Assembly (NCBI RefSeq): GCF_028290105.1
Contig: NZ_JAQGKL010000200.1
Span: forward strand, 1 to 48,979
DNA from: Methylobacterium sp.
Lineage (GTDB): Bacteria > Pseudomonadota > Alphaproteobacteria > Rhizobiales > Beijerinckiaceae
DNA length: 48,979 bases
Reading direction: 5' to 3'
The translations under genes and the position numbers were made by a program. The notes under the pieces are model-generated. The model was given only the letters and a program-made list of their open reading frames with translations, was not told the origin of the DNA and ran no database searches. The stretch's first letter is position 1. Each line of letters opens with the position of its first letter. This document shows, one piece after another, positions 13,040 through 30,760 of the stretch.

Positions 13040-13047
13040 GGCCCGAC

Positions 13048-13527
13048 ATGGCTACCACGCCCGGGGATGCGCCCCGCTTTCCCCTCGCCGTCGGCCTGCT
13101 GTTCGGCCTTGGCCTCGGCGGGTTCTTCGACGGCATCGTGCTGCACCAGATGCTGCAATGGCACCACATGGTGAGCAGCTGGTATCCGATCACCTCGATC
13201 GAGAACCTAGAGCGCAACACCTTCTGGGATGGGGTCTTCCACAGCGCCACCTACGTCTTCGTGGTCGTCGGGCTGTTCCTGCTCTGGCGCAGCGCCCATC
13301 GGCGCCACCTGCGCTGGTCCAACCGCCTGCTCGCCGGAACCCTGCTGATGGGCTGGGGGCTGTTCAACACCATCGAAGGGCTCATCGACCATCAGATCCT
13401 CGGCGCTCACCACGTCAACGAGCGGGTGCCCCGTGGGCAGTGGCTCGCCTGGGACCTCGGCTTCCTGGCCTGGGGCCTCGCCATGCTGATCGCAGGCTTC
13501 ATCCTCGTGCGCCGCGCTCGCCCATGA
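13048..13527 (+). CDS. DUF2243 family membrane protein
   Basis: A 159-residue membrane protein with about four hydrophobic helices. It carries the family's histidine-rich signature: FFDGIVLHQMLQWHHM, then FWDGVFHSATYVF, and GLFNTIEGLIDHQILGAHHV. The paired membrane-edge histidines look suited to metal or heme binding, but the family function is unknown. ATG 13048 has GAGG (13038-13041) at good spacing; ATG 13036, overlapping the OPT stop codon, would add four residues. Its stop overlaps the start of a 50-residue ORF. DUF2243 genes often lie near copper or cytochrome oxidase genes, which fits a role beside a metal pump, though this is inferred. Confidence 0.8.
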   Translation: MATTPGDAPRFPLAVGLLFGLGLGGFFDGIVLHQMLQWHHMVSSWYPITSIENLERNTFWDGVFHSATYVFVVVGLFLLWRSAHRRHLRWSNRLLAGTLLMGWGLFNTIEGLIDHQILGAHHVNERVPRGQWLAWDLGFLAWGLAMLIAGFILVRRARP

Positions 13528-13676
13528 CCCGCGCTCCGGCCGTGCGCGTCGCCATGCCCTGGCTCGCCTTGGCGGCGGGGCTCGTCCTCGCGACGATGCC
13601 CGTCTGGTGGCCCCTCCTCGCCGAGCGGTCCCTGGGCCTCGACGATCTCCTCACCCTGCGCTGCCTCGGCGGCTGA
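13524..13676 (+). CDS. Small membrane protein (50 residues), hypothetical
   Basis: A short ORF whose ATG overlaps the DUF2243 stop codon (ATGA at 13524-13527). It encodes one clear transmembrane helix (MPWLALAAGLVLATMPVWW) and a short tail ending LRCLGG. Position and overlap argue for translation coupled to DUF2243. I do not recognise a family. It is too short to be certain and could be spurious, but the hydrophobic helix and the overlap favour a real gene. Confidence 0.5.
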   Translation: MTRAPAVRVAMPWLALAAGLVLATMPVWWPLLAERSLGLDDLLTLRCLGG

Positions 13677-13739
13677 GCTTGACCCTGGCGACGGGGCGCG
13701 GGAAGGCACGGGACCGAAACGAAGCCAAGGATTGCCGCG

Positions 13740-13949
13740 ATGGCCACGCCCCGCGACCTCAAGGTGCAGATGGCGGGCGAAACCCGCGCCCGCGAACGGG
13801 CGCAGGCCCTGGCCGCGACCCAGGCGAACCTGGCGAAGCGCGCCGAGATCGCCGCGCGGGACGCGCAGGCCGAGCGCGATACCTGGAAGGCCCGCGCCCT
13901 CGCTGCCGAAGCCGAACTCGAACGCCTGAAGGCCGGAGCCCCGGATTGA
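13740..13949 (+). CDS. Small coiled-coil protein, hypothetical
   Basis: A 69-residue ORF with AAGG (13726-13729) about 10 nt before the ATG. The product is almost entirely helical and charged, rich in Ala, Arg, Glu and Lys, with heptad-like spacing (ARERAQALAATQANLAKRAE), so a short cytoplasmic coiled coil is likely. It lies between the DUF2243 pair and the DUF892 stress protein, about 120 bp before the latter. No family recognised. An overlapping antisense frame exists but has atypical composition. Confidence 0.5.
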   Translation: MATPRDLKVQMAGETRARERAQALAATQANLAKRAEIAARDAQAERDTWKARALAAEAELERLKAGAPD

Positions 13950-14070
13950 TACCGGTAATCCTGACGGCGACACGGACAGTGACCCATAGGCGGCGCGGAA
14001 CAGGAGCCACCCCGGAGTTCTTCTCGTCACGAAAGCGAATGCATTCGCGACCGATCAGGAGAGCTTCAAC

Positions 14071-14580
14071 GTGGCTACCGATACGCGCGACATCTATGTG
14101 ACGGCCCTCAAGAACACGCATGCACTCGAAATGCAGGCGCTCCAGATCATGGAACGCCAGGTCGAGCGCCTGCAGCGCTACCCCGAGATGGAGGCCGCCC
14201 TGCGCCGGCACATCGAGGAGACCCACGGCCAGCGCACCCGGATCGAGGAGGCCCTGCACACCCTCTCCGAGAGCCCCTCGGCCATCAAGGAAGGCGTGCT
14301 CGGCTTCGTCGGCAACATGATGGCGCTCGGGCACACGCCCGCCCAGGACGAGATCCTGAAGAACACTTATGCGAATCACGCCTTCGAGAACTTCGAGATC
14401 GCGGCCTACGAGTCGCTGATCGCCATCGGCGAGGCCGCCGGCCAGCAGACGGCGCTGACGGGCTTCCAGCAATCCCTGCGCGAGGAAGAGGCAATGGCGC
14501 GCACGGTGCGCGAGCTCATCCGGCCGACCACCCTGCGCTACGTCGAACTGACCGCCGCGGGCGAGAAGGCCGACCGCTAA
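14071..14580 (+). CDS. DUF892 (YciE/YciF-like) ferritin-like protein
   Basis: A 169-residue helical protein beginning with a GTG start, supported by CAGGAGAG at 14056-14063 with good spacing. It opens with ATDTRDIYVTALKNTHALE. Acidic and His residues recur on helices (HIEETHGQRTRIEEAL, then YANHAFENFEIAAYESL), matching the ferritin-like four-helix bundle of DUF892. Family members are usually stress-induced and bind a di-iron centre in some structures. It stands alone, followed by a strong hairpin, so it is probably monocistronic. I looked for an EcfG-type promoter upstream and found no good match. Confidence 0.85.
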   Translation: MATDTRDIYVTALKNTHALEMQALQIMERQVERLQRYPEMEAALRRHIEETHGQRTRIEEALHTLSESPSAIKEGVLGFVGNMMALGHTPAQDEILKNTYANHAFENFEIAAYESLIAIGEAAGQQTALTGFQQSLREEEAMARTVRELIRPTTLRYVELTAAGEKADR

Positions 14581-14610
14581 ACGAGCGTCATCGATCGATA
14601 ACACTTGAGA

Positions 14611-14634
14611 GGGCGGCGCCTGCGTGCGCCGCCC
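14611..14634 (+). terminator. Hairpin terminator between convergent genes
   Basis: A perfect 9-bp GC-rich stem, GGGCGGCGC at 14611-14619 and its complement at 14626-14634, with a 6-nt loop, followed on the plus strand by GATGTTGTTG. It lies 30 bp after the DUF892 stop and 12 bp before the stop of the minus-strand twelve-gene cluster, so it may stop both transcripts. Confidence 0.7.
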
Positions 14635-14646
14635 GATGTTGTTGCG

Positions 14647-16413
14647 TCAGGCGCGAGCGCCGTCCAGTGACCTGCAAAGCCGCGCCGTCTGGCGGTCGCG
14701 CCAGACCTGTAGACGCTGACGTTCGGCGGCGTCCGAGGTCGCTTCGAGCGCCAGGATGAGGGCGCCGACCTGAAAGGCGAGGTAGCACGGGGTCAGGAAT
14801 GCGATCAGGCGCGGGTCGATGCGCCGCTCGCAGATCTCCTCCACGATCGCGGTGAGCTTTGCCTGCGCGTCCGCTTCGAAGCCGAATTCCTGCACGGCGC
14901 CCACGATATCCCAGGCGATGTCCTGGCATCCGACGAGGTCGTGGCCGGCATGGTGGTCGAGGGAGTCACTCTTGAGGAGCCGGCCGTCCGGCAGGGACAG
15001 CCATTTCCAGGGCTGCATCCGGTTGTCGGTCTCGACGGGCCGGACGACCGCGCCGAGCGCCGCGACGGCGTCCGGCGTCCAGATGTCGAGGGGTCTGACC
15101 CAGTCCTGTCCCAGCGCCTCGCCGACATTGTGCCGCGCCATTGCGAGGAGTTCATCCAGATGCGCCCCGGCATTTCCGGTGGCGGGGAAATGACGGGCGC
15201 GAAAGCCGAGATAGCGCCCCAGGGTGTCGATCCAGCGGATATTCTCGGCTCGATCCGCGGCGAGAGGCTGCGCATCGGCGTGCCAATGCTCCAGGAGGAA
15301 ACCGTGGCGCAGCCCCAGGCACACAGGCGTGAACTCCGCCTCGGATAGAATCCCGGCCCGCTCGGCTTTGCGCGCAGCCCCCGCGCCGAGGCCGGCGAAT
15401 TTCAGGTGCCAAGTCCGTCCGCGCGCGCGGAGCAGGAACTTGCGCCGTTCCTGCCAGGCGTTCACCGGCGGCCATGCGGCCTCGTCGAGATAGAGATGCC
15501 GGCGCCATTCCCCGCCGGAAATGGTCTCCAGCGGTCCCTCCGCCCTGCCGACGAGGTCAACGAACCAGGCGCCGATCGCGTGCTCCGGCCGCTCCGGGTG
15601 CAGCATCAGTTCGTCGAAGGATACGAGATGGCGCGGGATGCGGCCCCAACGGGCACGGCGCGCCTCCGAGGCTTTGGGTCCCGGTGGGCCATCGTGGCTC
15701 GGAAAGAGAGTGATGCGTGGCTCGGGCACGCCGAGGTCCTGCAGGGCGTCGAGGGTGCCGCCGAAGGAGCTGCCGGACAGGCCCGGCCCTTCATCGACCA
15801 CCGCAATGGCCGCGCCGGTTTCGTGTAGCCTCGCACCCGTGTCTTCGGAGACGGACAGGGTCCGTCTGAACGGGTGCCCGATGGGGCGAACCGTGGTGAG
15901 CCGATCACTTCCGAGACCGGCGGCCACCATCGCGGCGAGCGGCGCGCCGATGCTGCGCAGGCCGATGACCTGCGTGCCCGGGCCGAGCCCCGCCCGGCGC
16001 GCGGCCACCGCATAGGCCTCCGGATATAGGGCATAGTACGAAAAGCCCTCCGGCCAGCGCGTCGCGACTTCGGCCGGAAGCGGCAGCGCGGTGAATGCCG
16101 CGAGGTCTCGCTCAAGGTCTGGAACCTCGCGACGGAACCCGTCACGCCAGGAATTGTCGACGGCGCCCCCGAGGGTCAGCAGCAGCGCTGTCGCGGCCTC
16201 CTGCTGCGGCGAGTTAGCGTCACACCCTTGTGCGGCAAAATCCGCGTCGGCGAGACCCTGGAGCAGGGCGCCGGCCTCGATGAAGGCCGCGACGAGGGCC
16301 CCGTGGCGTCGGATGTCCGCCGGCGCGCGGGCGGCCTCGGCGACGAGGTACTCGATGTCTGAGAGGAGGTCGCGCGGATCTCGGGGCCGGGTCATCTTGC
16401 CGAAGACGAGCAT
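14647..16413 (-). CDS. Phosphoribosyltransferase-like/kinase-like fusion protein (last gene of the twelve-gene cluster)
   Basis: A 588-residue protein without a clear family name. The N-terminal half carries a type I phosphoribosyltransferase-like loop around residue 205 (VVDEGPGLSGSSFGG), preceded by VIGLRSIGAPLAAMVAAGL, which looks like the same fold. The C-terminal half, with WHLKFAGLGAG, LLEHWHADAQPL and, near residues 488-500, HDLVGCQDIAWDIVG, recalls the APH-type small-molecule kinase ending. A two-domain enzyme that makes or processes a phosphorylated precursor is plausible, but both domain calls are inference. ATG 16413 lies 14 bp after the stop of the glycosidase gene; ATG 16395 is an alternative. 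Confidence 0.7.
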   Translation of the reverse strand: MLVFGKMTRPRDPRDLLSDIEYLVAEAARAPADIRRHGALVAAFIEAGALLQGLADADFAAQGCDANSPQQEAATALLLTLGGAVDNSWRDGFRREVPDLERDLAAFTALPLPAEVATRWPEGFSYYALYPEAYAVAARRAGLGPGTQVIGLRSIGAPLAAMVAAGLGSDRLTTVRPIGHPFRRTLSVSEDTGARLHETGAAIAVVDEGPGLSGSSFGGTLDALQDLGVPEPRITLFPSHDGPPGPKASEARRARWGRIPRHLVSFDELMLHPERPEHAIGAWFVDLVGRAEGPLETISGGEWRRHLYLDEAAWPPVNAWQERRKFLLRARGRTWHLKFAGLGAGAARKAERAGILSEAEFTPVCLGLRHGFLLEHWHADAQPLAADRAENIRWIDTLGRYLGFRARHFPATGNAGAHLDELLAMARHNVGEALGQDWVRPLDIWTPDAVAALGAVVRPVETDNRMQPWKWLSLPDGRLLKSDSLDHHAGHDLVGCQDIAWDIVGAVQEFGFEADAQAKLTAIVEEICERRIDPRLIAFLTPCYLAFQVGALILALEATSDAAERQRLQVWRDRQTARLCRSLDGARA

Positions 16414-16427
16414 CGCGTCGTCGCTTT

Positions 16428-17333
16428 CTAGGTCCCGAGGACGCGTCCGGGTGCGTAGCGCCGGACCATCGCGGCGCAGAACTCCGCGTATTCGTTCGGA
16501 TCGATGGGCGGGCTCGAATGGTGGGGGGCGAGGCCGCGATGCTCGGGCGTGAAGCAGAACGTCACCGTGACGTCGAAATCCTCCAGCGCCTTCATCTGCC
16601 GATCGAACCAGTCGAGGGCGTTGGGGCGGAAGCTGTCGGCCCAGGAGAGGCCGGTGCGCAGATAGGTGACGCCGAGGCGCCTCATCCAGGCGACCGCTTC
16701 GTCGAGGCGGTGATCCTCGTAGTGGAACCACTGGCACAGGCCGAGCGCCGGAGTGTGCCGGGCGAACGCTTCGGCGGCGAGCTTCGGGGTTCCGTCCTGC
16801 CGCAGCAAGCCCATGTGGAAGTGCCGGTAATACGAGGAGCCCTCGGCCTCGCGGTGGCGAGTGGTCGCCTCCCATTCGCGCGGCAGGTCGTAGAGGCTGT
16901 ACCAATGGATACGGGGCGCCTGTCCAACGAGCAGTTCGGCCGTCCGCGCGACACCCCAGAGTTGGACCTCCTCGGCGCCGAAGGTCGAGATGCCGACCTC
17001 CGAAACCCAGATCGGCAGGCCCGTGACCGCGCGGATCTCCGCGATCTTCTCCGGCCATTCGTGGATCTGCCACAGGTTCCAATCGAGGGGAAAGCCGTGG
17101 ACCGCGACGGCATCCACCGCGTCGAGGGCGCCGGTTCGCTCCAGCCGCTGGATGAAACCGGGGTCGATCGGCGAGATGCCGCCCAGCACCCGCGGGAGAT
17201 CGGGGTTCTCGGCCCGGATGGCGTGGCCGGCGAGCTTCACCATCTCGGCGAAGCGGTGCCAGTCCGGGTCGAGTTCCGCGTCCCAATGGGATTTGTTGTT
17301 CGGCTCGTTCCAGAGCATCACGGCTTCGATCAC
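16428..17333 (-). CDS. Clan GH-A-like glycosidase, apparently circularly permuted
   Basis: A 301-residue glycoside hydrolase. The acid/base motif LWNEPN appears at residues 7-12 (Glu10) and the nucleophile motif WVSEVG about 100 residues later (Glu112), the usual spacing for clan GH-A TIM barrels such as GH39 or GH5. In ordinary members the first barrel strands precede NEP. Here the typical barrel beginning (MRRLGVTYLRTGLSW, then VTVTFCFTPEHRG, then YAEFCAAMVRRYAPG) comes after the typical barrel end (MGLLRQDGTPKLAAEAF), so the order looks permuted. It starts at GTG 17333, overlapping the methyltransferase stop (GTGA). No signal peptide is visible, so it probably acts in the cytoplasm or is misnamed by fold. 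Confidence 0.8.
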   Translation of the reverse strand: MIEAVMLWNEPNNKSHWDAELDPDWHRFAEMVKLAGHAIRAENPDLPRVLGGISPIDPGFIQRLERTGALDAVDAVAVHGFPLDWNLWQIHEWPEKIAEIRAVTGLPIWVSEVGISTFGAEEVQLWGVARTAELLVGQAPRIHWYSLYDLPREWEATTRHREAEGSSYYRHFHMGLLRQDGTPKLAAEAFARHTPALGLCQWFHYEDHRLDEAVAWMRRLGVTYLRTGLSWADSFRPNALDWFDRQMKALEDFDVTVTFCFTPEHRGLAPHHSSPPIDPNEYAEFCAAMVRRYAPGRVLGT

Positions 17334-18115
17334 GCGCGGACCTCCCTGGGCGCTTGGGCCGGATAGACGGAGCCGGGCTCGGGTTTCTCCGCGCAGCGGC
17401 AGAGATAAACCTCCGCTTCGGGGTGTCCCACGATGGCAAAGCCGCTCGCCCGCAGCATCGCCTCGGTGCAGGCCCGGTTTGGCACCCACCAGTTGGTGGG
17501 ATCGTCCGAATAGCGCCCCTCGATGAAGTGCAGTTTCGGAAAGCCGGGCTCGTCGAAGGGGGCAGCCTCGAAGAAATCGTAGTCGCTCTTCAGGGGCGCG
17601 ACATCCGCAGAGCCGCGCTGCATCGACTGGAAGACGAGGAGGTCGTTCGCCACGGTCTCGCGGATGAGGTCGAGGGCCAGCAGCGGGTGCCGCAGGTGAT
17701 AGAGCACGCCCATGAACAGGACGATGTCGAAGCGCTCGCCCAAGGCCCCGACGTCGTAGACGGAGCCCTGAGCGAACTCGATGTCCTGCCCTGTCACCCG
17801 GGCGGCAAGGCGCGCCTGTTCGAGGTACCGGGCGTCGGAATCGAGCCCGAGCACGCGCGCGGCCCCGCGCCGCTTCATCTCGATGGCGTAGAAGCCGCCG
17901 TTGCAACCGATGTCCAGCACGCTCTTGCCGGTCAGGTCGGACGGCAGCGCGTCGCTGAAGCCGCGCCACTTCACGGCCGGATAGTCACCGAGGAAATGGT
18001 CCGGCGCGGTCCAGACGCCCTGGAGGTTGATGTTGTGGAACCACTGGCCCAGCGCATCGATCTGCCGCCGCAGGGACTCGGCCTCCAAGCGTGCACGATC
18101 GTCTGGTCTCATCAT
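17330..18115 (-). CDS. SAM-dependent methyltransferase (TIGR04290-like)
   Basis: A 261-residue class I methyltransferase. Motif I is VLDIGCNGGFYAIEMKRRGA, followed by the acidic VLGLDSD at the end of strand 2 and FDIVLFMGVLYHLRHP, which resembles CmoB-type tRNA-uridine methyltransferases in this region. The opening LGQWFHNINLQGVWTAP matches my memory of a family found in a conserved twelve-gene oligosaccharide-type cassette, so a small-molecule or sugar substrate is more likely than tRNA. Two adjacent ATG codons (18115 and 18112) could start it. It is separated by 61 bp from the phosphatase upstream, the widest gap within the cluster. Confidence 0.85.
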   Translation of the reverse strand: MMRPDDRARLEAESLRRQIDALGQWFHNINLQGVWTAPDHFLGDYPAVKWRGFSDALPSDLTGKSVLDIGCNGGFYAIEMKRRGAARVLGLDSDARYLEQARLAARVTGQDIEFAQGSVYDVGALGERFDIVLFMGVLYHLRHPLLALDLIRETVANDLLVFQSMQRGSADVAPLKSDYDFFEAAPFDEPGFPKLHFIEGRYSDDPTNWWVPNRACTEAMLRASGFAIVGHPEAEVYLCRCAEKPEPGSVYPAQAPREVRA

Positions 18116-18176: not shown

Positions 18177-18764
18177 TCATGACAGATGCGCCGTGGCGTT
18201 GACGCCTCGCACCCGACCGCCGCCGGGCCAGATGTCGACGCAGGCGATGGATGCCGGGTCCACCACGAGGCGATCGTAGGCAGCGATGGAGAGACCCAGG
18301 ACATGGAGGAGAACGGCGCGGATGACGTCGCCGTGGCTGACCGCGATCAGACACTCCTCGGGCCGGCCGGCGAGAGCCGCCACGGCCCGTGCCTGGGCCT
18401 GCCCCATGCCCTCGCCGCCGGGCGGGCGGGTGCGGTCGCGCTGCGTGTTCCAGGCCCACCAGAGCGGGTCGTCGGAGAGATCGACGAAGGATCGACCGGT
18501 CCAGTCGCCGAAATCGATCTCATCGAGGCCGGACTCCTCGATCACCGGCAGCCCCAGCACCCGAGCGATAGGGTGCGCGGTCTCGACGGAGCGGGCACGC
18601 GGGCTCGTCAGCACGGCGCGCGCGCCGCAATTGCGAAGGGCCTGCCCGAGCGCGTCGGCTTCGCGGCGGCCCTCGTCCCCGAGGGACACGCCCGCCATGC
18701 GGCCGCACAGGATGCGGTCCACCCGGTCGTGGCTGGCATGGCGCACCAGGATGATCCGGCTCAC
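18177..18764 (-). CDS. Histidine phosphatase family protein
   Basis: A 195-residue phosphoglycerate-mutase-like phosphatase. The catalytic RH dyad is at Arg8-His9 in ILVRHASHD, the second Arg in [11 protein letters not shown], the acid in EIDFGDWTG, and the second His in VSHGDVIRA. All four active-site positions appear intact. Its start overlaps the stop of inositol-3-phosphate synthase (ATGA at 18761-18764), which suggests that it dephosphorylates the inositol phosphate or a derived sugar phosphate; that substrate is an inference from gene order. RNase H/CobC-like phosphatases of the same fold act on other small phosphates. Confidence 0.88.
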
Positions 18765-19864
18765 GCCGGCCCCACCGGGACGATGTCGGCCTCACCGGCG
18801 ATGAAGGCGCGCGTGCGGGCGCGGGCTTCCGCATCCGTGAATTGCTGCGGCGGCGCCTTCATGAAGTAGCTCGACGGCCCGACCAGGGCGCCGCCGATGC
18901 GGCGGTCGAGGGCGAGGCGGGCGCAGCGCACGGCATCGATGACGATGCCCGCCGAGTTCGGCGAATCCCAGACCTCGAGCTTCAATTCCATTGATAGCGG
19001 TACTCCGCCGAAGGCCGTGCCTTCCAGCCGGATCTGCGCCCATTTCCGGTCGGTCAGCCAGGGCACGTGGTCGCTTGGCCCGACATGGATGTCGTCGGGG
19101 TGGAGCGGAACGTCGAGCTGGCTCGTGACCGCGCGGGTCTTGGAGATCTTCTTCGATTCCAGGCGCTCGCGTTCGAGCATGTTCTTGAAATCGGCGTTGC
19201 CGCCGAAGTTGAGCTGGTAGGTCCGGTCGAGGCGGACGCCGCGCTCGCGCATCAGGTTGGCCAGCATCCGGTGCACGATGGTGGCGCCGACCTGGCTCTT
19301 GATGTCGTCGCCCACGATGGGAAGGCCACGCTGCGCGAAGCGCGCCCGCCAATCCGGATCGGAGGCGATGAAGACGGGAATGCAGTTCACGAAGGCGCAG
19401 CCCGCATCGAGGGCGCAGCGGGCGTAGAACTCGGTGGCCGCCTGCGAGCCCACCGGCAGGTAGGAAACCAAAACCTGCGTGCGCGTGCGCCGGAGTTCGG
19501 CAACCACATCGTCGACGGGGCCGTCAGCCTCGACGATTTCCGCGCGCATGTAACGGCCGAGCCCGTCGAGGGTCGGGCCGCGCCGGACGGTGACGCCGCT
19601 CGCCGGCACCTCGGCGAAGCGGATCGTGTTGTTCGGGGCGGCGCCGATCGCGTCGGCCAGATCGCGCCCGACCTTCGCGGCGTTGATGTCGAAGGCCGAG
19701 ACCACCGTGACGTCGCGGATATGGTAGCCGCCGAGGGACACGTTCATCAGCCCTGGCACCGTCTCGGCCGGGTCCGCGTCGCGATAGTAATGCAGCCCCT
19801 GCACGAAGGACGAGGCGCAATTGCCCACTCCGACGAGGCCGACGCGGATCGGATCGCCCGTCAT
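18761..19864 (-). CDS. Inositol-3-phosphate synthase
   Basis: A 367-residue NAD-dependent enzyme that converts glucose 6-phosphate to 1L-myo-inositol 3-phosphate. The NAD-binding [12 protein letters not shown] lies near residues 8-19. Active-site blocks [31 protein letters not shown] and [14 protein letters not shown] are all present. Its size and pattern correspond to the short actinobacterial/archaeal form rather than the 500-residue eukaryotic one. De novo inositol synthesis is unusual in Proteobacteria and here is embedded among glycosyltransferases, which argues for an inositol-bearing glycan or lipid. Both ends overlap neighbours by four bases. Confidence 0.92.
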
Positions 19865-20982
19865 GCGCCGGCCTCCTCCAGGCAGGTCGTGGGCGCGGCG
19901 CCCCGGCTCCGGATCGCGATCCCGGCGCTGAGCGCGTCCTCCAGTTCGGTCGCCCGGCGGCCGGCGCTGTGGCGGGCGAGAACCCGCGCGCGGGCCGCTG
20001 CGCCGATGCGCCGTCGCACCGCGTCCGGCTGCAGCCGTAGGATCGGGAGCACGTCCTCGGGTCCCTGCGCCAGGATGATCTCGGAGCCCGGTGCGAGCAC
20101 CGTGTCGAGGCCGTCCCAGGTGTCGCCGATGATCGGCGTGCCGATGCAGGCCGCCTCGAACAGGCGCACGCTCGGGGAATAGCCGGCCCGGATCATGTCC
20201 GCGCGGGTGACGTTCAGGGTGTAGCGGCTCGCGGCGTAAAAGTCCGGGTGCCGGTCCGGCGGCAGGTGCGCGAAGCGCGTGACGTTGGCGGGCCAGTCGA
20301 TCCCGTCCGGGTATTGGGGGCCGGCGACGCAGAAGCGCAGGTCCGGCGCGCGCCGGGCCGGCTCAATCAGGAGGCGTTCCAGGGTCGGCTGCCGGTCTGG
20401 GCTGTAGGTGCCGAGATAGGAGAGATCGTAGAGGATCTCCCGCTCCAGGGCCGGGTAGGCCTGAGGGTCGACGGAGCAATAAAGCGCGCGCGCGGCTGGC
20501 GAGCCGTAGGTCTCCTCGAGGAGGCGCAGGGTCGGCCCGCCGGTGAAGGACAGGTAGAGGTCGTAATCCGCGATCTGGCGCTTGGCGAGGTAGGCGCAAT
20601 CGTCCGCCTCCAGGCGCGCCAGGGTGACGGGCGTATCGATGTCGTAGAAGGCGCGCAGGCCCTGCGCCCAGGCGAGCACCCGGTCGCCGACAGCGATCCC
20701 GTCGGGCACGTAGGAACCGACGATGACGGCATCCGCCGCCGCGATCGCCTCCCGGTACGTCTCCAGCGCGGCGAGGTCGGGATAGAGCGCGAAGCGGCAG
20801 AAGCCGGGCTCGGCGAGGTCGCGATGCTCGGCATACCAGGGTACGTCCCGCTCCAGGAACAGGACGTCGTGACCGCGCAATGCGAAAGCCTTCAGCAGGG
20901 CGCGGTAGGTGGTGGCGTGCCCGTTCCCCCAGGACGAGGACAGGCTCAGACCGAGCACCACGAGGCTGAGACGGCGGCTCAC
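19861..20982 (-). CDS. CgeB-type glycosyltransferase (third of three)
   Basis: A 373-residue GT-B fold protein. The N-terminal domain has [22 protein letters not shown] and [16 protein letters not shown], typical of the CgeB/spore-coat glycosyltransferase group. The C-terminal domain has [20 protein letters not shown] and, near residue 280, [17 protein letters not shown], the donor-binding Glu region of GT4-like enzymes. The nucleotide-sugar donor is unknown. It resembles the next two genes in layout but is clearly diverged, so the three probably add different residues to one chain. Start and stop overlap adjacent genes through ATGA. Confidence 0.85.
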
Positions 20983-22085
20983 GCAACGCTCCGGGGCCGC
21001 ATGAGGGCGCCCTTGCGGACGGCCTCGTTCCGTAGGATCGCGTCGACCTCTGCCCCGCGCCGCGCATAGGTGTGCTCGGCCGTGATGCGGGCGCGGGCCG
21101 CCGCGCCGATCGTGCGGGCGCGCTCCGGTGTCAGGCCGGCGAGGTGCTCGGCGACTTCGCGCCCGTCACGGGCGACCAGCACCTCGGTGCCCGGCTCCAG
21201 GAAGCGTTCGATGCCCTCCCAGGCATCGGTGATGAGGCAGGCCCCGGCTCCCGCCGCCTCGAAGACGCGGGTTGCCGGCGAGAAGCCCACTTCCGCCATG
21301 CTGTCGCGGGCGATGTTGAGCACGGCGAGCGGCGTCGTGTTGAAGGCGTTGTGCTCGCGTGTGTAGACGTGCCCGAGGTGATGGACGTTGGCCGGCAGGC
21401 CACGGCCTTCCCAGCCGCTGCCGCCGAGGAGGAAGCGCCGCTCGGGTAGGTGCGCGGCCGCGTCGAGGAAGAACGCCTCCACGCGTGCCTCGCGGTCCGG
21501 CAGGCGGTTGCCGAGGAAGGCGAGGTCGGCGGCGAAGCGCGGCTCGGGCGGTACGGGGTGGTGGGTCGCCGGATCGAGGGCGTTGTAGATCGGGATGCAG
21601 CGCCGGGCGCCGAAGTCCTCGTAGGCGGCGACCACCGGCGGGCCGCCGCCATAGGTCAGGACGAGGTCGAGGGCCGGCATCGCGCGGTGCAGGACGTGGG
21701 CGGCGTTCGCCCGCATCTCCGCGAGGGTGGCGGGCGCGTCGACGTCCCAGAAGATGCGGATCGCCTCCGGCCGCGATGTGTCGATGACGCCCTCGAGCAG
21801 TTCCTCGTCGAAGATCCCGACACCGCTCGCCTTGACGACGACATCCGCTCGCGCCGCTTCCGCCACAACGCCGCGCATGGCGTCGGGGGTCGCCGGATAG
21901 ACTTTCACCTCGGCATAGGGCGGCGGGTCGATGTCGCGGTGCTGCTGACGGTCGAAGGCGTCGGGTTCGTAGAAGGTGATGCTGTGGCCGCGGCCGGCGA
22001 GGTCGCTGAGGAGGCCGCGATAGTAGGTGGCCGCGCCGTTCCAGTAGGAGGACAGCAGGCTGGAGCCGTAGAAGGCGATCTTCAT
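20979..22085 (-). CDS. CgeB-type glycosyltransferase (second of three)
   Basis: A 368-residue GT-B glycosyltransferase. It begins MKIAFYGSSLLSSYWNGAA and continues LAGRGHSITFYEPDAFDRQQH. The middle has LVLTYGGGPPVVAAYEDFGA and DLAFLGNRLPDREARVEAFF, and the donor site contains ATRVFEAAGAGACLITDAWEG. The N-terminal pattern (ligand loop with Ser-Tyr-Trp-Asn) is shared with the adjacent paralogues. It is a cytoplasmic enzyme without membrane segments, expected to build the cluster's oligosaccharide from nucleotide sugars. Acceptor and donor are unknown. Confidence 0.85.
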   Translation of the reverse strand: MKIAFYGSSLLSSYWNGAATYYRGLLSDLAGRGHSITFYEPDAFDRQQHRDIDPPPYAEVKVYPATPDAMRGVVAEAARADVVVKASGVGIFDEELLEGVIDTSRPEAIRIFWDVDAPATLAEMRANAAHVLHRAMPALDLVLTYGGGPPVVAAYEDFGARRCIPIYNALDPATHHPVPPEPRFAADLAFLGNRLPDREARVEAFFLDAAAHLPERRFLLGGSGWEGRGLPANVHHLGHVYTREHNAFNTTPLAVLNIARDSMAEVGFSPATRVFEAAGAGACLITDAWEGIERFLEPGTEVLVARDGREVAEHLAGLTPERARTIGAAARARITAEHTYARRGAEVDAILRNEAVRKGALMRPRSVA

Positions 22086-23194
22086 GCGGATCTCTCCAGG
22101 GGTTCGGGAACGCCGAGGCGCGCCACGATGGCGAGCAGTTCGGCGGCGCGATGGGCACAGGTGTGGCGGGCCGCGATGGTGGCAAGACCCTGATCGCGTA
22201 AGGAAATCCGCAAGGCGGGGTCGTTCCGCAGCGCCGCGAGGTGGCGCCCCATCTCGGGCCCGCTGCGGGCGACGAGGTAGTCCGTGCCGGGCCTGAACAG
22301 CCCCTCCGCGTCGTCCCAGGGCGCGCAGGCGAGCGGGATGCCGCAGGCCAGGGCCTCGAAGACGCGGATGGTCGGGATGCCGGGCAGGTGCCGCACGTAG
22401 AAGCGACGTGGCACGTGGACGGTTGCCACATGCTGCGCGAAGAGGCGTGGCGCGGCTGCATTGGGCGCCCAGCCGTTATAGCACGCGCCATGATGTTGCA
22501 GGGTCCGGACCGCCGCATCGGGATAGCGCACGCCGTAGACGTCGAGTCCGAGCCCGGCGGCCCGGGCCGGCGCGAACAGGTAGGTCTCGAGTTCCTGGCT
22601 GCGCTCGTCGTCGCCCCAGTTCCCGATCCAGACGAGTCCGGCGCGCGGGCCCTCCCGCGCCGGCGGATGGAACAGGCGGGTGTCGGCGGCCTCGTGCCAG
22701 ACGAAGGCGCGGTCGCCCCAGCCCCAGTTTCGATAGACCGCCGCCAGGGTCTCGCCGAAGGCCAGGATCCCGTCGAAGCCGGAGAGGTCGAAGCGGCGCA
22801 TCTCGTCGGGGGCGCTGACGGCGCGGTGGTGGGTGTCGTGGAACAGCAGGGTGTAGCCGGCGCCGCTTTTACGCCGGGCGCCGAGGGCGGCGGCGAGGGC
22901 CGGGTCGTTCCACTCGTGGACGATCACGAGATCGGCCTGTGCGACCCGGTCCGCGACGGCGTCGATGCTTGCATAGGTCGTCGAGGCGAGGTCCGGATAG
23001 GCCGCCCGGTAGGCGTCGAGGCCGGCCTCGCCGTGGTCCCGCAGCAGGTTCTCCAGGCTCCAGGCGCCCTCGGGCTCGTAGGCATCGACCTCATGGCCCA
23101 GCGCGATCAGTTCCCGCAGCACCCCGCGCAGGAAATGCGCGTTGCCGTGGTTCCAGCACGAGGCCAGGGAATGGGTGAAGTAGGCGATCCTCAT
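22082..23194 (-). CDS. CgeB-type glycosyltransferase (first of three)
   Basis: A 370-residue GT-B glycosyltransferase starting MRIAYFTHSLASCWNHGNAH and LIALGHEVDAYEPEGAW. Domain two carries GLVWIGNWGDDERSQELE, and then PTIRVFEALACGIPLACAPW, the donor-binding region with the conserved Glu. The ATG at 23194 overlaps the GT4 stop. A much longer open frame continues upstream on this strand but it is Arg-rich and lies under the GT4 gene, so it is a shadow. It is related to the next two genes and most likely arose by tandem duplication followed by divergence. Confidence 0.85.
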   Translation of the reverse strand: MRIAYFTHSLASCWNHGNAHFLRGVLRELIALGHEVDAYEPEGAWSLENLLRDHGEAGLDAYRAAYPDLASTTYASIDAVADRVAQADLVIVHEWNDPALAAALGARRKSGAGYTLLFHDTHHRAVSAPDEMRRFDLSGFDGILAFGETLAAVYRNWGWGDRAFVWHEAADTRLFHPPAREGPRAGLVWIGNWGDDERSQELETYLFAPARAAGLGLDVYGVRYPDAAVRTLQHHGACYNGWAPNAAAPRLFAQHVATVHVPRRFYVRHLPGIPTIRVFEALACGIPLACAPWDDAEGLFRPGTDYLVARSGPEMGRHLAALRNDPALRISLRDQGLATIAARHTCAHRAAELLAIVARLGVPEPLERSA

Positions 23195-24321
23195 GCGGCG
23201 GCCCCCCCGAGGGAGCGGGCGGAGGTCCCGGCCCAGCAGGCGCGGAAGATGCCGAGCACGCCGGTGGTCATCGCCTCGACGCCGTAGCGGCCGGCGCGGG
23301 TGCGCGCGGCCGCGCCCCACCGGGCCCGCTCGGCGGGATCGTCGGCGAGCCCCCGGATCGCCGCGACCGCGCCGGCCTCGTCCTCCGGGTCGACGAAGAG
23401 AGCGGCGCCGTCCCACAATTCGCGAAAGCTCGCGAGGTCGGAGAGGACGAGGGCGCAGCCGGCGCTCGCCGCCTCCAGCACCGCGAGGCCGAAGGGCTCG
23501 TAGCGCGCGAGCGAGAGGAAGACCGGGCGCCGAACGAGGTGCGCGGCGACGCCGAGATCGTCGAGGCGGCCGAGGCAGTCGAGGTGGCGCGCCGCCACGC
23601 GCTCGCCGCTCGGGCTCTCCATCGGTCCGGCGGCCCGAAGCGGCCAGTCGAGGCGCGCGGCGACCCGGTCGAGGGCGGCGGCGTTCTTGGCCCGGTCCCA
23701 GAGGCGCCCGGCGGTGAAGACGTAGGACGCGGGCGGGAGCGCCCCGCTCGGCCGGGCCGACGCGCGGCGCCCGTTGCGCACCACCACGGGGCTCGCGGGT
23801 AGCCCGTAGACCGCCTGCGTCGCCGCCGCGAAGGCTTTCGTCGGCGCCAGCAGGGCATCGACGGTGGCGCATCCGGCGGCGGCGAGATCGCGGCGCCAAG
23901 CGAGGTCGGCGGGCAGCGGGCCGGTCTCCACGGCCTCCCACCACGTCCCGACGCAGGAATGGGAGACGGCCACCACCGGCACCGGGTAGTCCGGGCCGGC
24001 GAGCGCCGGGGAATGCAGGTGGACGATGTCGGCGTTCAGGCTCCCGGCGAGGCGCGCCAGGGCGGCCGCGGCCTCGCGGACCTCGGCCGGGTCCCGCGCC
24101 ATCCAGTCGAGGGCGAGGCCGGTTGCGAGGATGCGGCAGCCGCTGGCGGCCTCGGCGGCGGCGATGCGCTCGGCGGGCGGGACCGGCCCGAGGACCGCGA
24201 TGGTGACGCTCAGCCCGCGCCGCACCAGGCCCTCGCCGAGGTCGAGGCTGTACTGCCAGACCCCGCCCAGGGCGTCGGCCGTCATCAGGACGTGCGGGCG
24301 CTCTCTCACCGGCATCCGCAT
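23191..24321 (-). CDS. Glycosyltransferase family 4 protein
   Basis: A 376-residue retaining GT-B enzyme. The N-terminal VLMTADALGGVWQYSLDLGEGL is the acceptor-side glycine loop. The C-terminal domain has YVFTAGRLWDRAKN and, near residue 275, the E-x7-E donor motif RYEPFGLAVLEAASAGCALV, followed by SDLASFRELW. It overlaps the radical SAM gene by 16 bases if started at ATG 24321, or by 10 if started at ATG 24315. Like its neighbours it is predicted to be cytoplasmic. GT4 enzymes often start or extend lipid-linked or inositol-linked glycans, and the presence of inositol synthase in the operon makes an inositol acceptor worth considering. Confidence 0.88.
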   Translation of the reverse strand: MRMPVRERPHVLMTADALGGVWQYSLDLGEGLVRRGLSVTIAVLGPVPPAERIAAAEAASGCRILATGLALDWMARDPAEVREAAAALARLAGSLNADIVHLHSPALAGPDYPVPVVAVSHSCVGTWWEAVETGPLPADLAWRRDLAAAGCATVDALLAPTKAFAAATQAVYGLPASPVVVRNGRRASARPSGALPPASYVFTAGRLWDRAKNAAALDRVAARLDWPLRAAGPMESPSGERVAARHLDCLGRLDDLGVAAHLVRRPVFLSLARYEPFGLAVLEAASAGCALVLSDLASFRELWDGAALFVDPEDEAGAVAAIRGLADDPAERARWGAAARTRAGRYGVEAMTTGVLGIFRACWAGTSARSLGGAAA

Positions 24322-25598
24322 GCGGCCTCCAGGTCGCGAAGAGGCAGCGGGCGCTCCTCCTGGATGTCGCTGAGGCGCGTGAACTGCCCGAGGTAATGGG
24401 CGTGCGCGCGCTCCCAGGCGTGGTCGTCGGGCTCGCCCCAGAGGCGGCGGTAATCGGGCGAACTCGGATAGGGATAGAGCGGCACCGGATCGTTGGCCCA
24501 GACCCCGTCCCGGCGCAGGCGGTCGCGCCAATCCGCCACCATGGCGGGGTCGTCGCCCGCCACCGCGATCAGGTTGGCCTGGACGAAGGGAACGCTGCGC
24601 CGGGCATGGATCAGGCGCTCGGCGAGATCGTCGGTGGAGGCCCGGCACTTCTTGTCGAGGGCGGCGCGGCCCGCTTCCGTCAGGCTCTCGATGCCGGCCT
24701 CGATGGAGACGCAGCCCGCCGCCCCGAGGAGGTCGAGCATGTCGGGCTTCCAGAGGTCGATCCGGGTCTGGATGCCGAAGCGCACCTCGCGGGAGACGAG
24801 GGCCTCCAGCAGGGGCTTCTGGGGCAGGAAGATCTCGTCGATGAAATAGAGGTAGGTCACGCCCTGCGCGATCAGCCCGTCGATCTCATCGAGGACGATG
24901 GTGAGGTCGCGTCGGCGGTAGGCGTCGCGAAAGTCGATCTTCGCGCAGAAACTGCACGCGTAGGGGCAGCCGCGCGAGGCCTCGACCTCGGCGCCAGGCC
25001 CGTCGGGCTGGGTGTCGAAGCGGTGGTGATGGTGGGTGTGCCGCGCGATCCAGCGGTCGGGCCAGCGCAGGGGGGCCAGATCGGTGAAGCGGCTCGCATG
25101 GGGCCCGCCGGTCACCACCCGGGCGCCGCCGTCGCGGAAGGCGATGGCCGGCACCGCGTGGAGATCGTCCGCATCGGCGAGGCGGGCGACGATCTCCTCG
25201 CATTCGCCGCGCACGACGACATCGCAGGCGAGCTTGTCGAGGGTCGGGCCCGGCGTCGCCGAGCCGTGCGGGCCCACCGCGACCGTGCGGCCGCCGCGCC
25301 CGTTCAGGGCGTCGAGGAAGCCGCGCGGCACCCGCAATTCCGGCGGGGCGCAGCGCCAGAACAGGTAGGTGGGTGCGGTCGCCACCACGGTCATGGCCGG
25401 GGCGAAGGCCGCGACCGCGTCGGCGGCCTGATCCTGGCCGAGGCCGTCGAGATGCGCATCGACGATGAGCGCCTCGTGGCCGGCGGCCTCCAGCAGGGCG
25501 GCGCTATAGGCGAGTTCCAGGGGCAGGTGCGGCGAGCGGCACCCGAAATAGATGCTGTTGCGGTAGTCCCAGGGCGGGTTGACGAGGGCGACTCTCAT
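24306..25598 (-). CDS. B12-binding domain radical SAM protein (TIGR04295-like)
   Basis: A 430-residue protein of the cobalamin-dependent radical SAM class. The N-terminal domain (about 1-150) opens ALVNPPWDYRNSIYFGCRSP and includes HEALIVDAHLDGL, a B12-binding Rossmann pattern. The radical SAM domain has the CX3CX2C cluster motif at about residues 211-218 (CPYACSFC), then YLYFIDEIF and GIQTRIDLW and SIEAGIESLTEAG, which bind SAM and shape the barrel. Enzymes of this class methylate unactivated carbon or phosphorus atoms, or form C-C bonds. Within this glycan cluster, C-methylation of a sugar or cyclitol is the most economical guess. ATG 25598 overlaps the epimerase stop. Confidence 0.9.
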   Translation of the reverse strand: MRVALVNPPWDYRNSIYFGCRSPHLPLELAYSAALLEAAGHEALIVDAHLDGLGQDQAADAVAAFAPAMTVVATAPTYLFWRCAPPELRVPRGFLDALNGRGGRTVAVGPHGSATPGPTLDKLACDVVVRGECEEIVARLADADDLHAVPAIAFRDGGARVVTGGPHASRFTDLAPLRWPDRWIARHTHHHHRFDTQPDGPGAEVEASRGCPYACSFCAKIDFRDAYRRRDLTIVLDEIDGLIAQGVTYLYFIDEIFLPQKPLLEALVSREVRFGIQTRIDLWKPDMLDLLGAAGCVSIEAGIESLTEAGRAALDKKCRASTDDLAERLIHARRSVPFVQANLIAVAGDDPAMVADWRDRLRRDGVWANDPVPLYPYPSSPDYRRLWGEPDDHAWERAHAHYLGQFTRLSDIQEERPLPLRDLEAACGCR

Positions 25599-26659
25599 TC
25601 GGCGGCCCCCGCGAGCGGCGCGTGGCCGGATCTGAACCCGCGCTCGGTCGCGAGCCAGGCGGCCAGATCGGCGACGCCTTCGCGCCACTCGGTCGCGCTG
25701 CCGAGGCTCAGCGCCTCCGTGACCGCGCGCGTATCCGAGACGTAGTAGCGCTGGTCGCCCGGGCGCCAGTCCTGGAGGGTGCGTTCGACGGGACGTCCGG
25801 TCAGGGCGGCGATGTGGTCGAGGATCTGGAGCAGGCTCACCGCGTTGCGCGGGCCGCCTCCGAGATTGAAGGCGCGGCCCGCGATGGCGTCGATGCGGGT
25901 CAAGGCCGCGCGATAGGCGGCGACGGCATCCCGCACGTGCAGGATGTCGCGCACCTGCGCGCCGTCGCCATAGAGGGTGATGGCCTTGCCTTCGAGGGCG
26001 CGGATGAGAAAGTGGGCGACCCAGCCCTGGTCCTCGGTGCCCATCTGGCGCGGGCCGTAGATGCAGCTCATGCGGAAGACCGCCGTCGGCAGGCCGAAGC
26101 TGCGGGAATAGTCGAGCACGTACTGGTCCGCCGCACCCTTGGAACAGCCATAGGGGGTGTGGAAATCCAGCGGGCGGTCCTCGCCGATGCCGCGTGCGCG
26201 TAACGTGGGATCGACCGGCAGGTGGGCGTCGCCCTCGCGGGCGAGCGCGATATCGGGCAGGTCGCCATAGACCTTGTTGGTGGAGGCAAACAGCAGGGGT
26301 ATGGGCCGCGCCCGCGCGCGCATCGCCTCCAGCAAATTGAGCGTGCCGATGAGGTTCACCTCGGCATCGCCGCGCGGGTCGGTGAGGCTCGTCGTCACCG
26401 CCACCTGCGCGGCGAAGTGGAACACGGCCCCGGCCTCGGCCACCGCTTCGCCGAGGGGCCCCGCATCGCGGATGTCGGCGACGATCGAGCGGATCCGGTC
26501 GGGGTGGCGTGCCTGCAGCCATGCGAGGTTGCGCGCCACGCCAGGGCGCACGAGGGCGTCGTAGACGATGACGGTATGGCCGTCGCCCGCCAGGCTGTCC
26601 GCGAGGTTGGCGCCGACGAAACCGGCGCCGCCGGTGATGAGGACGGTGCGTTTCGTCAA
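25595..26659 (-). CDS. NAD-dependent sugar epimerase, CDP-paratose 2-epimerase-like
   Basis: A 354-residue extended SDR. It starts VLITGGAGFVGANLADSL, has ASTNKVYGDL, and then DFHTPYGCSKGAADQYVLDY with the catalytic Tyr and Lys. The block GTEDQGWV and DGAQVRDILHVRD also match RfbE, the CDP-tyvelose/paratose 2-epimerase, closely enough that a C2-epimerisation of an NDP-sugar is a fair prediction. It starts at TTG 26659, whose bases overlap the stop of the upstream epimerase (TTGA); no ATG lies near the Rossmann motif. The donor sugar it makes is presumably used by the downstream glycosyltransferases. Confidence 0.88.
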   Translation of the reverse strand: MTKRTVLITGGAGFVGANLADSLAGDGHTVIVYDALVRPGVARNLAWLQARHPDRIRSIVADIRDAGPLGEAVAEAGAVFHFAAQVAVTTSLTDPRGDAEVNLIGTLNLLEAMRARARPIPLLFASTNKVYGDLPDIALAREGDAHLPVDPTLRARGIGEDRPLDFHTPYGCSKGAADQYVLDYSRSFGLPTAVFRMSCIYGPRQMGTEDQGWVAHFLIRALEGKAITLYGDGAQVRDILHVRDAVAAYRAALTRIDAIAGRAFNLGGGPRNAVSLLQILDHIAALTGRPVERTLQDWRPGDQRYYVSDTRAVTEALSLGSATEWREGVADLAAWLATERGFRSGHAPLAGAAE

Positions 26660-27768
26660 GCCACGAGACCCCGTGCTTCGAGTTCCCGGCGCGCATCCGC
26701 CACGCGGTCGATCGCCTGCTGCCGGGCGACCCAGGCCGCGAGTTCGGCCAGGCCCTCGGTGAAGTCGCGCTGCGGCCGGAAGCCGAGTTCGCGCTCGATG
26801 CGGCCGATATCGGCGATGCAGTGGCGGATGTCGCCGGAGCGCGCCTGGCCGGTGACCTCGGGGGCGATGTCGGGGCGGCCCATGGCCTCGGCCAGCAGGC
26901 GGGCGACCTCGCGCACGGAGCGATCCTCGCCGCTGCCGACATTGTAGACCTGGCCCGGCGCGTCCGGGTGCTCCAGGGCCAGCACGAAGGCGCGCGCCAC
27001 GTCCTCCACGTGGACGAAGTCGCGGCGCTGCTCGCCGTCCTCGAAGATCATCGGCGGCTGGCCGTTGTGGATGCGCGCGGCGAAGATCGCGAGCACGCCC
27101 GTATAGGGATTCGAGAGGGCCTGGCCGGGTCCGTAGGCGTTCCACAGGCGCAGGGCGACGCCCTCCATGCCGTAGGCGGGCGCGAGCGTCAGGGTCAGGC
27201 GCTCCTGCATGTACTTCGTGAGAGCGTAGACCGAGGCGAGCGCGGGCAGCTTGGTTTCCGGTGTCGGCACCGGGCGCAACGGGCGGCCCCCGGCGTCGAG
27301 GGGGTCCCAGAATTCGCCGGCCTTTCGCGGGCGCCGGAGCGCATTCTCCACGAGGGTGCCGTCCTCGGCGCGGTAGAGGCCCTCGCCGTAGACGCTCATC
27401 GAGGAGGCGACGACGACGCGCTTGACCGGATTGGCGATCAGGCCCTCGAACAGCACCGCGGTGCCGCAATCGTTGACCGAGACGTAGCGCTCCACGGCAT
27501 ACATGCTCTGGCCGACACCGACCTCGGCCGCCAGGTGAACCACGCGGTCGACCCCCTTCAGGGCCGCCGCGACGGCCCCGGCGTCGCGCACGTCGCCGAT
27601 GCGGATCTCGACCTCGGGGGCGAGACCCTGCGCCACCTTGGCGTGGCCGTGGACCTGCTCGATCAGGCTGTCGAGAACCCGGACGCGGTAGCCCCGCTCC
27701 AGCAGCGCATGCGCGAGGTGGCGACCGATGAAGCCGGCGCCGCCGGTGATCAGAATGGTTTCTTTCAC
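26656..27768 (-). CDS. NAD-dependent epimerase/dehydratase (first gene of the twelve-gene cluster)
   Basis: A 370-residue extended SDR. TILITGGAGFIGRHL at the N-terminus binds NAD. VASSMSVYGEG and the catalytic YALTK lie in the middle, followed by LRLWNAYGPGQ and EDGEQRRDFVHVED. The insert GEFWDPLDAGGRPL and the overall pattern are nearest to dTDP-L-rhamnose 4-epimerase-like (WbiB) enzymes; UDP-glucose 4-epimerase is the alternative. I chose GTG 27768 because it places the Rossmann strand at once. An ATG at 27831 would add 21 unconserved residues and would bury a DNA dyad that looks regulatory. It leads the operon. Confidence 0.85.
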   Translation of the reverse strand: MKETILITGGAGFIGRHLAHALLERGYRVRVLDSLIEQVHGHAKVAQGLAPEVEIRIGDVRDAGAVAAALKGVDRVVHLAAEVGVGQSMYAVERYVSVNDCGTAVLFEGLIANPVKRVVVASSMSVYGEGLYRAEDGTLVENALRRPRKAGEFWDPLDAGGRPLRPVPTPETKLPALASVYALTKYMQERLTLTLAPAYGMEGVALRLWNAYGPGQALSNPYTGVLAIFAARIHNGQPPMIFEDGEQRRDFVHVEDVARAFVLALEHPDAPGQVYNVGSGEDRSVREVARLLAEAMGRPDIAPEVTGQARSGDIRHCIADIGRIERELGFRPQRDFTEGLAELAAWVARQQAIDRVADARRELEARGLVA

Positions 27769-28109
27769 GCAGTCACGATGCCCCACGCTAGGAATCGAAG
27801 CACTAACAAACGATATCCGGACGGATAACATGGGTTAATGCTGACCACAGGCCAGTCGAAATTCCGACTGTTCTGACGGAATGCCCGTGCGACCCGAGAA
27901 CCGTGAGTTGTCAGCTTTGTTCCTGGCAATGATTCACTGTGTCCGGAATGGTCTTTTTCTTCCTGTCGGCGCAGGCTGCGTCGGGATCTTTCGGGACTTG
28001 CGGCCATTTCGTGCGAGCCCGGCCTTCCCCGTCGCATCTTCGGCGGGATCGCGGTGGCCCGTACCCGGCGTAGCTGTTAGAGATCCGCCGCTGATCAGGG
28101 GAGACGACG
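27769..28109. other. Divergent intergenic region between the twelve-gene cluster and the CorC-like gene
   Basis: 341 bp with no supported gene. It must hold the promoters for both directions. Apart from the two dyads at 27814-27870 and the ribosome site AGGGGAG at 28097-28103 I find nothing distinctive. Confidence 0.5.
27814..27870. promoter_or_regulatory. Two dyads upstream of the twelve-gene cluster
   Basis: TATCCG-GA-CGGATA at 27814-27827 is a 6-bp-arm inverted repeat. CAGTCG and CGACTG (27853-27858 and 27865-27870) form an 18-bp near palindrome around AAATTC. They lie 46 and 85 bp before the GTG at 27768, in the A/T-richer part of the gap, where an operator of the cluster would be expected. 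Binding proteins are unknown. Confidence 0.4.
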
Positions 28110-30585: not shown

Positions 30586-30637
30586 GGGGCGCCTGGGGCT
30601 GAGGCCGGCCCCCGCCCGAGGCGGCGCGAGGGTGGAA

Positions 30638-30652
30638 TGCTGCATTGCAGCA
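30638..30652. promoter_or_regulatory. Inverted repeat upstream of the MFS exporter
   Basis: TGCTGCA-T-TGCAGCA, a perfect 7-bp dyad around one base, 53 bp before the ATG at 30585. Size and place fit a repressor operator, but no regulator gene is adjacent. Confidence 0.4.
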
Positions 30653-30760
30653 CGCACCCGCAGGGCTAACACGGCCGACCCGGATCAGCGATGCGCCGGG
30701 CTCGGGGAGCCTGCGCGCGCATCGTATGCCCCTGACCGCTCCCATCCCCGAAACGACGAA

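Follow-up and report, generated by a model that had tools for sequence, protein, structure and literature searches.

The product of cpGH, a gene in DNA of Methylobacterium sp., is a circularly permuted glycosidase barrel: its two halves occur in crossed order in unpermuted sister proteins, and a single eight-strand barrel is predicted for its chain. An earlier note on this DNA had proposed such a permutation from the letters alone, and we now regard the permuted strand order of cpGH as near certain. In our judgement, it is highly likely that cpGH is a naturally permuted glycosidase of the clan GH-A type, probably cytosolic and retaining, and that it is the sister of a barrel found in fusion with an SDR and probably the replacement of that barrel.

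The cpGH gene and its neighbours

The window, that is, the whole stretch of 48,979 nucleotides that was analysed, is a contig of a draft genome of 316 contigs. As shown in Table 1, cpGH is the eleventh of twelve tightly packed minus-strand genes (27831-14647), which encode, in this order, SDR1, SDR2, the TIGR04295 protein, four glycosyltransferases, an inositol-3-phosphate synthase-like protein, a histidine phosphatase, the TIGR04290 methyltransferase, cpGH, and a 588-residue protein; this run probably is an operon. The TIGR04290 methyltransferase and the TIGR04295 radical SAM protein, both above the cut-off of their models, are thus encoded in one gene run. In a simple motif test, a methyltransferase frame ending in the same overlap with cpGH was found at 68 of 102 loci.

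Table 1. Positions of cpGH, of its parts and of neighbouring genes in the window.
Feature	Positions	Strand	Details
Permuted glycosidase gene (cpGH)	16428..17333	-	301 aa, GTG start, TAG stop
cpGH residues 1-195, strands b4-b8 of an ordinary barrel, including NEP (putative acid/base E10) and E112 (putative nucleophile)	16749..17333	-	Alignments to the Tistrella fusion and PslG
cpGH residues 196-301, strands b1-b3 of an ordinary barrel (b1 198-200, b2 224-229, b3 254-259)	16431..16748	-	Tistrella fusion alignment and model strands
Joint, residues 193-197, from old C-terminus (helix 185-192) to old N-terminus (strand 198-200)	16743..16757	-	Model; rotation-scan peak
E10 codon, predicted acid/base, after b4	17304..17306	-	NEP in 104/104 loci
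E112 codon, predicted nucleophile, end of b7	16998..17000	-	VSEVG/VTEVG in 103/104 loci, ISEVG in L079
TIGR04290 family methyltransferase	17330..18112	-	4 bp overlap with cpGH start; E 2e-113, model positions 2-226 of 226
SDR2, free-standing SDR equivalent to the SDR half of the fusions, without a barrel	25595..26659	-	58-63% identical to the three named fusions over their SDR half
SDR1, NAD-dependent epimerase/dehydratase	26656..27831	-	
TIGR04295 B12-binding radical SAM protein	24306..25598	-	E 7.8e-215
Four glycosyltransferases	23191-24321, 22082-23194, 20979-22085, 19861-20982 (span 19861..24321)	-	
Inositol-3-phosphate synthase-like protein	18761-19864	-	
Histidine phosphatase family protein	18177-18764	-	
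588 aa protein, last gene of the run	14647..16413	-	No Pfam/NCBIfam match

Several other features of this region were recorded. The inositol-3-phosphate synthase-like protein, encoded amid glycosyltransferase genes, scored 547 bits against the mycothiol INO1 model (cut-off 638), and a relative of the 588-residue protein was present at 16 of the best 80 loci. Elsewhere in the window, positions 29428-30672 of the minus strand encode an MFS transporter similar to Cmx/CmrA chloramphenicol efflux proteins (330.5 bits, below the model cut-off of 400). The sequence GGAAC-N15-18-CGTT, which we take to be the EcfG-type promoter motif, had two matches in the window versus 1.1 expected, both at 33-40 kb and outside the cpGH run.

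Order of the catalytic motifs and the start of the gene

In clan GH-A, an Asn-Glu pair holding the acid/base follows the strand equivalent to b4, and the nucleophile Glu stands at the end of b7. When the translation of cpGH was read, NEP was found at residues 9-11 and a nucleophile-type Glu at residue 112 (WVSEVG), followed in sequence by MGLLRQDGTPKLAAEAF, LGVTYLRTGLSW, FCFTPEHRG, and YAEFCAAMVRRYAPG, just as the earlier note had described. That note had also held that no N-terminal half is lost upstream, and this too was borne out. The preceding gene encodes the TIGR04290 methyltransferase in a different frame, and because its TGA overlaps the GTG start of cpGH, no N-terminal half is lost there. 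Moreover, at L064, L066 (= L085), L087, L090, and L104, an in-frame stop lies at most 10 codons upstream of WNEP, so that nothing can precede WNEP in these five genomes (six loci). A lost N-terminal half was thus ruled out by the shadow frame of the methyltransferase and by the close upstream stops.

Predicted structure of cpGH

An AlphaFold2 model made from the window sequence and 36 homologues (pLDDT 85.5, pTM 0.86; pLDDT below 50 at residues 155-167 and 299-301) showed the 301 residues as one barrel with its strands in permuted order, not as a normally connected barrel. The eight strands (residues 4-7, 48-53, 75-80, 108-113, 142-145, 198-200, 224-229, and 254-259) run along the chain as b4-b8 and then b1-b3. 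This predicted structure is a (beta/alpha)8 barrel of the kind found in clan GH-A and carries the catalytic pattern of the clan, with N9-E10 coming after strand one of the chain (b4) and E112 at the end of strand four (b7). Eight strands, the pTM value, and the alignment of almost the whole model to closed barrels all point to a single folded domain in this prediction.

When the model was compared with known structures by sequential alignment, PslG aligned to model residues 1-195 only (PslG 156-356; Z 11.7, 2.4 A, 25% identity, 175 residues). PslG was 29th by Z, within 1.3 of the best match (an unrelated barrel, 13.0), and had the lowest rmsd and the highest identity in the list. Almost full coverage of the model was given by other barrels, whose Z was in some cases slightly above that of PslG (up to 13.0), at 3.5-4.5 A and no more than 14% identity. 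Both kinds of match, partial to PslG and nearly complete to others, are as expected for a rotated chain of a symmetric barrel. Foldseek alone found no full-length relative in the PDB; its top rows were unrelated TIM barrels (TM by query mostly ~0.2-0.45, rmsd ~8-10 A), and lower rows held partial glycosidase matches, such as 7kgz (181 columns, 3.5 A) and 2bnj (167 columns, 4.3 A).

Crossed halves in unpermuted relatives

Searches of plasmids (tblastn) and of whole genomes identified relatives in which a part resembling cpGH residues ~194-294 comes first and a part resembling residues ~5-192 comes second, in one frame. Each such relative is an N-terminal barrel followed, at the C-terminal end of the same protein, by an SDR. 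Both halves of a homologous protein in swapped order, the mark of a natural permutation, were seen as two crossing blastp matches in all three fusions named here, from Tistrella mobilis, Paracoccus sp. AK26, and Rhizobium etli, and the same crossed order was found in 11 of 11 further intact fused barrels, at 30-41% identity per half. In the Tistrella fusion, cpGH residues 195-293 matched residues 13-113, and cpGH residues 5-192 matched residues 120-305. The lowest identity of any half was 28%, for the first half of the Paracoccus barrel.

The position of the cut was examined with a rotation scan, in which the family alignment was cut at every sixth column and scored against nine fused barrels (including one decayed barrel, G443, and excluding G356 and G131, which are near copies of the Tistrella row). 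The score was 88.6 bits in the native order, 134.4 bits at best, and 63.6 bits at worst, and the peak corresponded to a cut before residue 193, which is the expected joint. Profile searches of the PDB gave a similar picture. With the native profile (37 rows, the window plus 36 of the 80 best loci), PslG was found at 7.5e-6 as two crossing stretches; with the rotated profile (nine rows, from which L074, whose joint reads QWLHF and lies outside the joint pattern, was excluded), PslG was found at 1.1e-11 as a single stretch, PslG 25-301.

These results also bear on the possibility that cpGH is a truncated glycosidase with an unrelated C-terminal domain. Such a reading would agree with the weak Pfam match to the first part of the protein alone (best at residues 3-119, below cut-off). 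However, residues ~194-294 match the first hundred barrel residues of the canonical sisters at ~30-41% identity, the model is one eight-strand barrel, and scores rise on rotation, and we consider truncation extremely unlikely. A separate C-terminal domain was ruled out by the single-barrel model and by this match to the start of the sister barrels: as the earlier note had surmised, the C-terminal third of cpGH is b1-b3.

Conservation of the permuted order

Relatives of cpGH were collected from GTDB species genomes as the best 80 of 567 stretches, to which further loci were added to give 104. The earlier note had asked whether all cassette homologues share the order, and those examined do: permuted order with the same ends was found at 104 of 104 loci (window included), and it is thus not a local rearrangement. 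These loci represent 100 distinct proteins, since four genomes were entered twice. The genera represented among the best 80 of the 567 included Methylobacterium, Methylorubrum, Microvirga, Mesorhizobium, Roseomonas and relatives, Rhodoplanes, and Bradyrhizobium, together with one Lysobacterales MAG. The start codon was at the same place at 103 of 104 loci, the remaining one (L025) having a GTG one codon further out. Both catalytic glutamates were kept throughout (Table 1), and RTGLSW (b2), HGFP (b6), and WYSL (b8) were present in all listed forms.

In addition, 107 plasmid records, for example Sinorhizobium meliloti pSymB, contained a cpGH relative with 80% or more of the length covered at E 1e-5; no phage relatives were found at E 1e-5. 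In one of the plasmid loci (L131; S. meliloti R11 pSymB, 12001-15351), the permuted gene is followed by two opposite-strand genes, one for an F420 hydrogenase-type protein and one for a polysaccharide pyruvyl transferase, unlike in the window.

Because the window comes from a draft genome in hundreds of contigs, one could ask whether the order is an artefact of sequencing or assembly, or whether two separate genes have been taken for a single one. The recurrence of this same order at every locus, in many genera, in a record titled as complete (L017), and in many plasmid records leaves that explanation a negligible probability; homologues with the same order refute an artefact or a merger of two genes.

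Family placement

No Pfam model matched cpGH above its cut-off. In the native order, cpGH scored 17.5 bits against Glyco_hydro_cc (cut-off 21) and 10.9 bits against GH53 (cut-off 24); rotation raised these scores only slightly, to 19.4 and 13.5 bits, respectively, still below the cut-offs. Since no cut-off was passed, cpGH has not earned a GH39 or GH5 label, and it was not filed under GH39, although its sequence is distantly similar to that of a classified GH39 member, PslG, which is its nearest solved relative. Homologues of cpGH are annotated as hypothetical protein, beta-xylosidase, or glycosyl hydrolase, and the permutation helps to explain how proteins of this type escape family models.

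Decay of the fused barrel

The SDR half of the three named fusions is closer to SDR2 of the window (Table 1) than to SDR1 (30-32% identity), and the order SDR1, SDR2, radical SAM protein, and four glycosyltransferases is common to the window and the Tistrella cluster. SDR2 was found by motif within reach at 22 of the best 80 loci, and a barrel stood ahead of it at none of the 22. As a control for a second barrel, these 80 loci were searched by tblastn with two intact and two decayed barrels; the permuted gene was hit at 80 of 80 loci, 19 matches extended beyond the 60-base margin, and the 15 of these 19 that were listed all overlapped the start of the permuted gene.

The permuted gene was found in 93 distinct genomes (24, 7, 9, 17, and 36 new per search, with uneven sampling). 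Seven of them also contained an SDR-fused barrel: G443, G1163, G1164, G1165, and G1166 (one genus), G911, and G301. The fused barrel was not found in the other 86, in searches of limited reach with intact or decayed fused barrels; among 31 genomes known to have the permuted gene, one decayed-barrel query missed that gene in 7 and found every intact fusion. In eleven genomes, the fused barrel was present and a permuted gene was not found at E 0.001, and in one alignment LWNEPNN and the nucleophile Glu were kept in the fused barrels of all 11.

When both genes occurred in one genome, the fused barrel had lost NEP in all six genomes, of the seven, in which it could be read, and four of the six had also lost the nucleophile. 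In the seventh (G301), the fusion was cut by a contig end and the nucleophile was kept. The SDR-fused barrels lacking NEP are those of L221 (G443), L219, L220, L222, L236, and L194/L212 (G911). They probably are dead enzyme domains kept in frame ahead of the SDR. Given that five of the six decayed fusions are from one genus, they represent only about two independent decays; at least two of the losses look independent, since G911 and the G443 genus lie in different parts of the SDR tree.

That the permuted enzyme replaced an unpermuted relative is well supported. Where it is present, the fused barrel is without its catalytic motif or was not found, and the permuted copy probably took over the job of the fused barrel, in a direction of replacement that we infer. 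Alternatively, cpGH could be a real permuted barrel whose fused relative decayed independently of it, once the SDR fusion could do without a barrel, and the two could have had different jobs. The small number of independent decays and the position of the permuted rows outside the fused group in the trees (see below) are compatible with that explanation. It is at odds with the fact that loss occurred only beside the permuted gene (every readable genome with both genes versus none of the 11 without the permuted gene), with the similar kinds of neighbouring genes, and with the many permuted-gene genomes in which the fused barrel was not found. We regard unrelated decay as unlikely and replacement as the better reading.

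Trees and descent

In a barrel tree with canonical outgroups, the permuted and the fused rows formed separate groups (95/89 and 100/99, respectively); L106, L107, L110, L111, L136, and L137, which did not fit the pattern, were left out. A second barrel tree, with more fused and fewer permuted rows (24 permuted rows, no decayed row), gave 100/99 for the fused group and 48/79 for the permuted group. Both trees excluded G356, G131, and the partial fusion G301, and in such trees long branches join the outgroup, which makes the root unsure. As the permuted rows were not nested in the fused group in either tree, the permuted gene may have an origin other than the fused barrel. In the SDR tree, stand-alone SDRs stood among fused ones, and a single fused clade was not rejected (AU p 0.22). 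The later SDR tree was made without G356 and G131; G192, in which the motif test detected no SDR motif, entered this tree only.

The ends common to all permuted loci argue for a single permutation event. We can infer, if not prove, the following history: an intact fusion was once present, the permuted gene came about or was acquired separately, and decay or loss of the fused barrel followed. The opposite polarity, with the permuted order ancestral and the canonical fused order derived, might be read from the genome counts, since the permuted gene was found in 93 genomes and an intact fusion in 11, numbers affected by uneven sampling. Canonical order in the more distant relatives PslG, L146, and L147, and in clan GH-A enzymes in general, makes it very unlikely that the permuted order came first.

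Proposed origin and function

We propose that the break in an ordinary barrel fell between helix 3 and strand 4, with a link of about five residues now connecting the former ends, and that the permuted gene possibly arose by duplication and end-trimming. Its sister is the canonical barrel that forms the N-terminal half of the barrel-SDR fusion in the same kind of cluster elsewhere. By analogy, E10 and E112 may act as Glu165 and Glu276 of PslG do, which would make cpGH a probable cytosolic retaining beta-glycosidase with E10 as acid/base and E112 as nucleophile. The chain begins at b4, and cpGH thus has no leader; this, together with the fusion of its sister to an SDR of the nucleotide-sugar type, suggests a cytosolic enzyme active during synthesis of the product of the gene run. 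There, cpGH may trim or transfer a sugar of an oligosaccharide or glycoside whose synthesis the surrounding genes direct, where "oligosaccharide" is taken from the short name of the TIGR04295 model, B12_rSAM_oligo.

Comparison with known systems

In the literature searched, which left subscription papers mostly outside its scope, we found no report of a natural permutation in clan GH-A, no paper on circular permutation with GH39, and no papers on TIGR04290 or TIGR04295; the matches listed for permuted glycosidases and TIM barrels mostly concerned GH70, MalS, CE4, and unrelated subjects. We lean towards the view, with less confidence than we place in the permuted glycosidase itself, that cpGH represents the first natural circular permutation in the very large clan GH-A and that it displaced a fused relative at least twice, leaving dead barrels on the SDR.

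The closest comparison is with the barrel-SDR fusions of Tistrella mobilis (WP_014747405.1), Paracoccus sp. AK26 (WP_167624239.1), and Rhizobium etli (ACE94375.1), which are annotated as NAD-dependent epimerase/dehydratase or SDR. They share with cpGH a homologous barrel (~28-41% identity per half), the same NEP and nucleophile motifs, and a similar gene cluster (SDR1 and glycosyltransferases, with TIGR04290 or TIGR04295 annotated in some). The fusions differ in having canonical order and a fused SDR, whereas the window has a permuted barrel and a separate SDR. PslG of Pseudomonas aeruginosa is described, in excerpts of PMC11912335, as a GH39 retaining endo-beta-glucosidase with acid/base Glu165 and nucleophile Glu276. 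These residues match E10 and E112 by position, and PslG is nearest by structure over model residues 1-195; unlike cpGH, PslG has canonical order, and its identity to cpGH is low.

Transaldolase and class I aldolase are likewise TIM barrels, treated in a study of non-sequential structure alignments (PMC2213659). However, they are not glycosidases, and they were compared by structure and not as close sequence sisters.

Natural permutations of glycosidase barrels are few, and that of GH70 from GH13 was the case most often met in the literature searched. According to excerpts of PMC4919382, the barrel of GH70 glucansucrases is a permuted version of the GH13 type, its chain beginning at alpha3-beta4, and the permutation is explained by duplication, fusion, and partial truncation. 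GH70 and cpGH are alike in being naturally permuted glycosidase barrels, cut at almost the same place and with surviving unpermuted relatives. They differ in that GH70 enzymes belong to clan GH-H and are large, extracellular, and multidomain, whereas cpGH is a leaderless protein of 301 residues encoded in a biosynthetic gene run. With an unpermuted sister at ~28-41% identity, coexisting decayed copies, and a GH70-like cut, the effect of permutation on activity, stability, and partnering is directly testable on the cpGH pair, as is the question of why an enzyme was released from a fusion and rewired.
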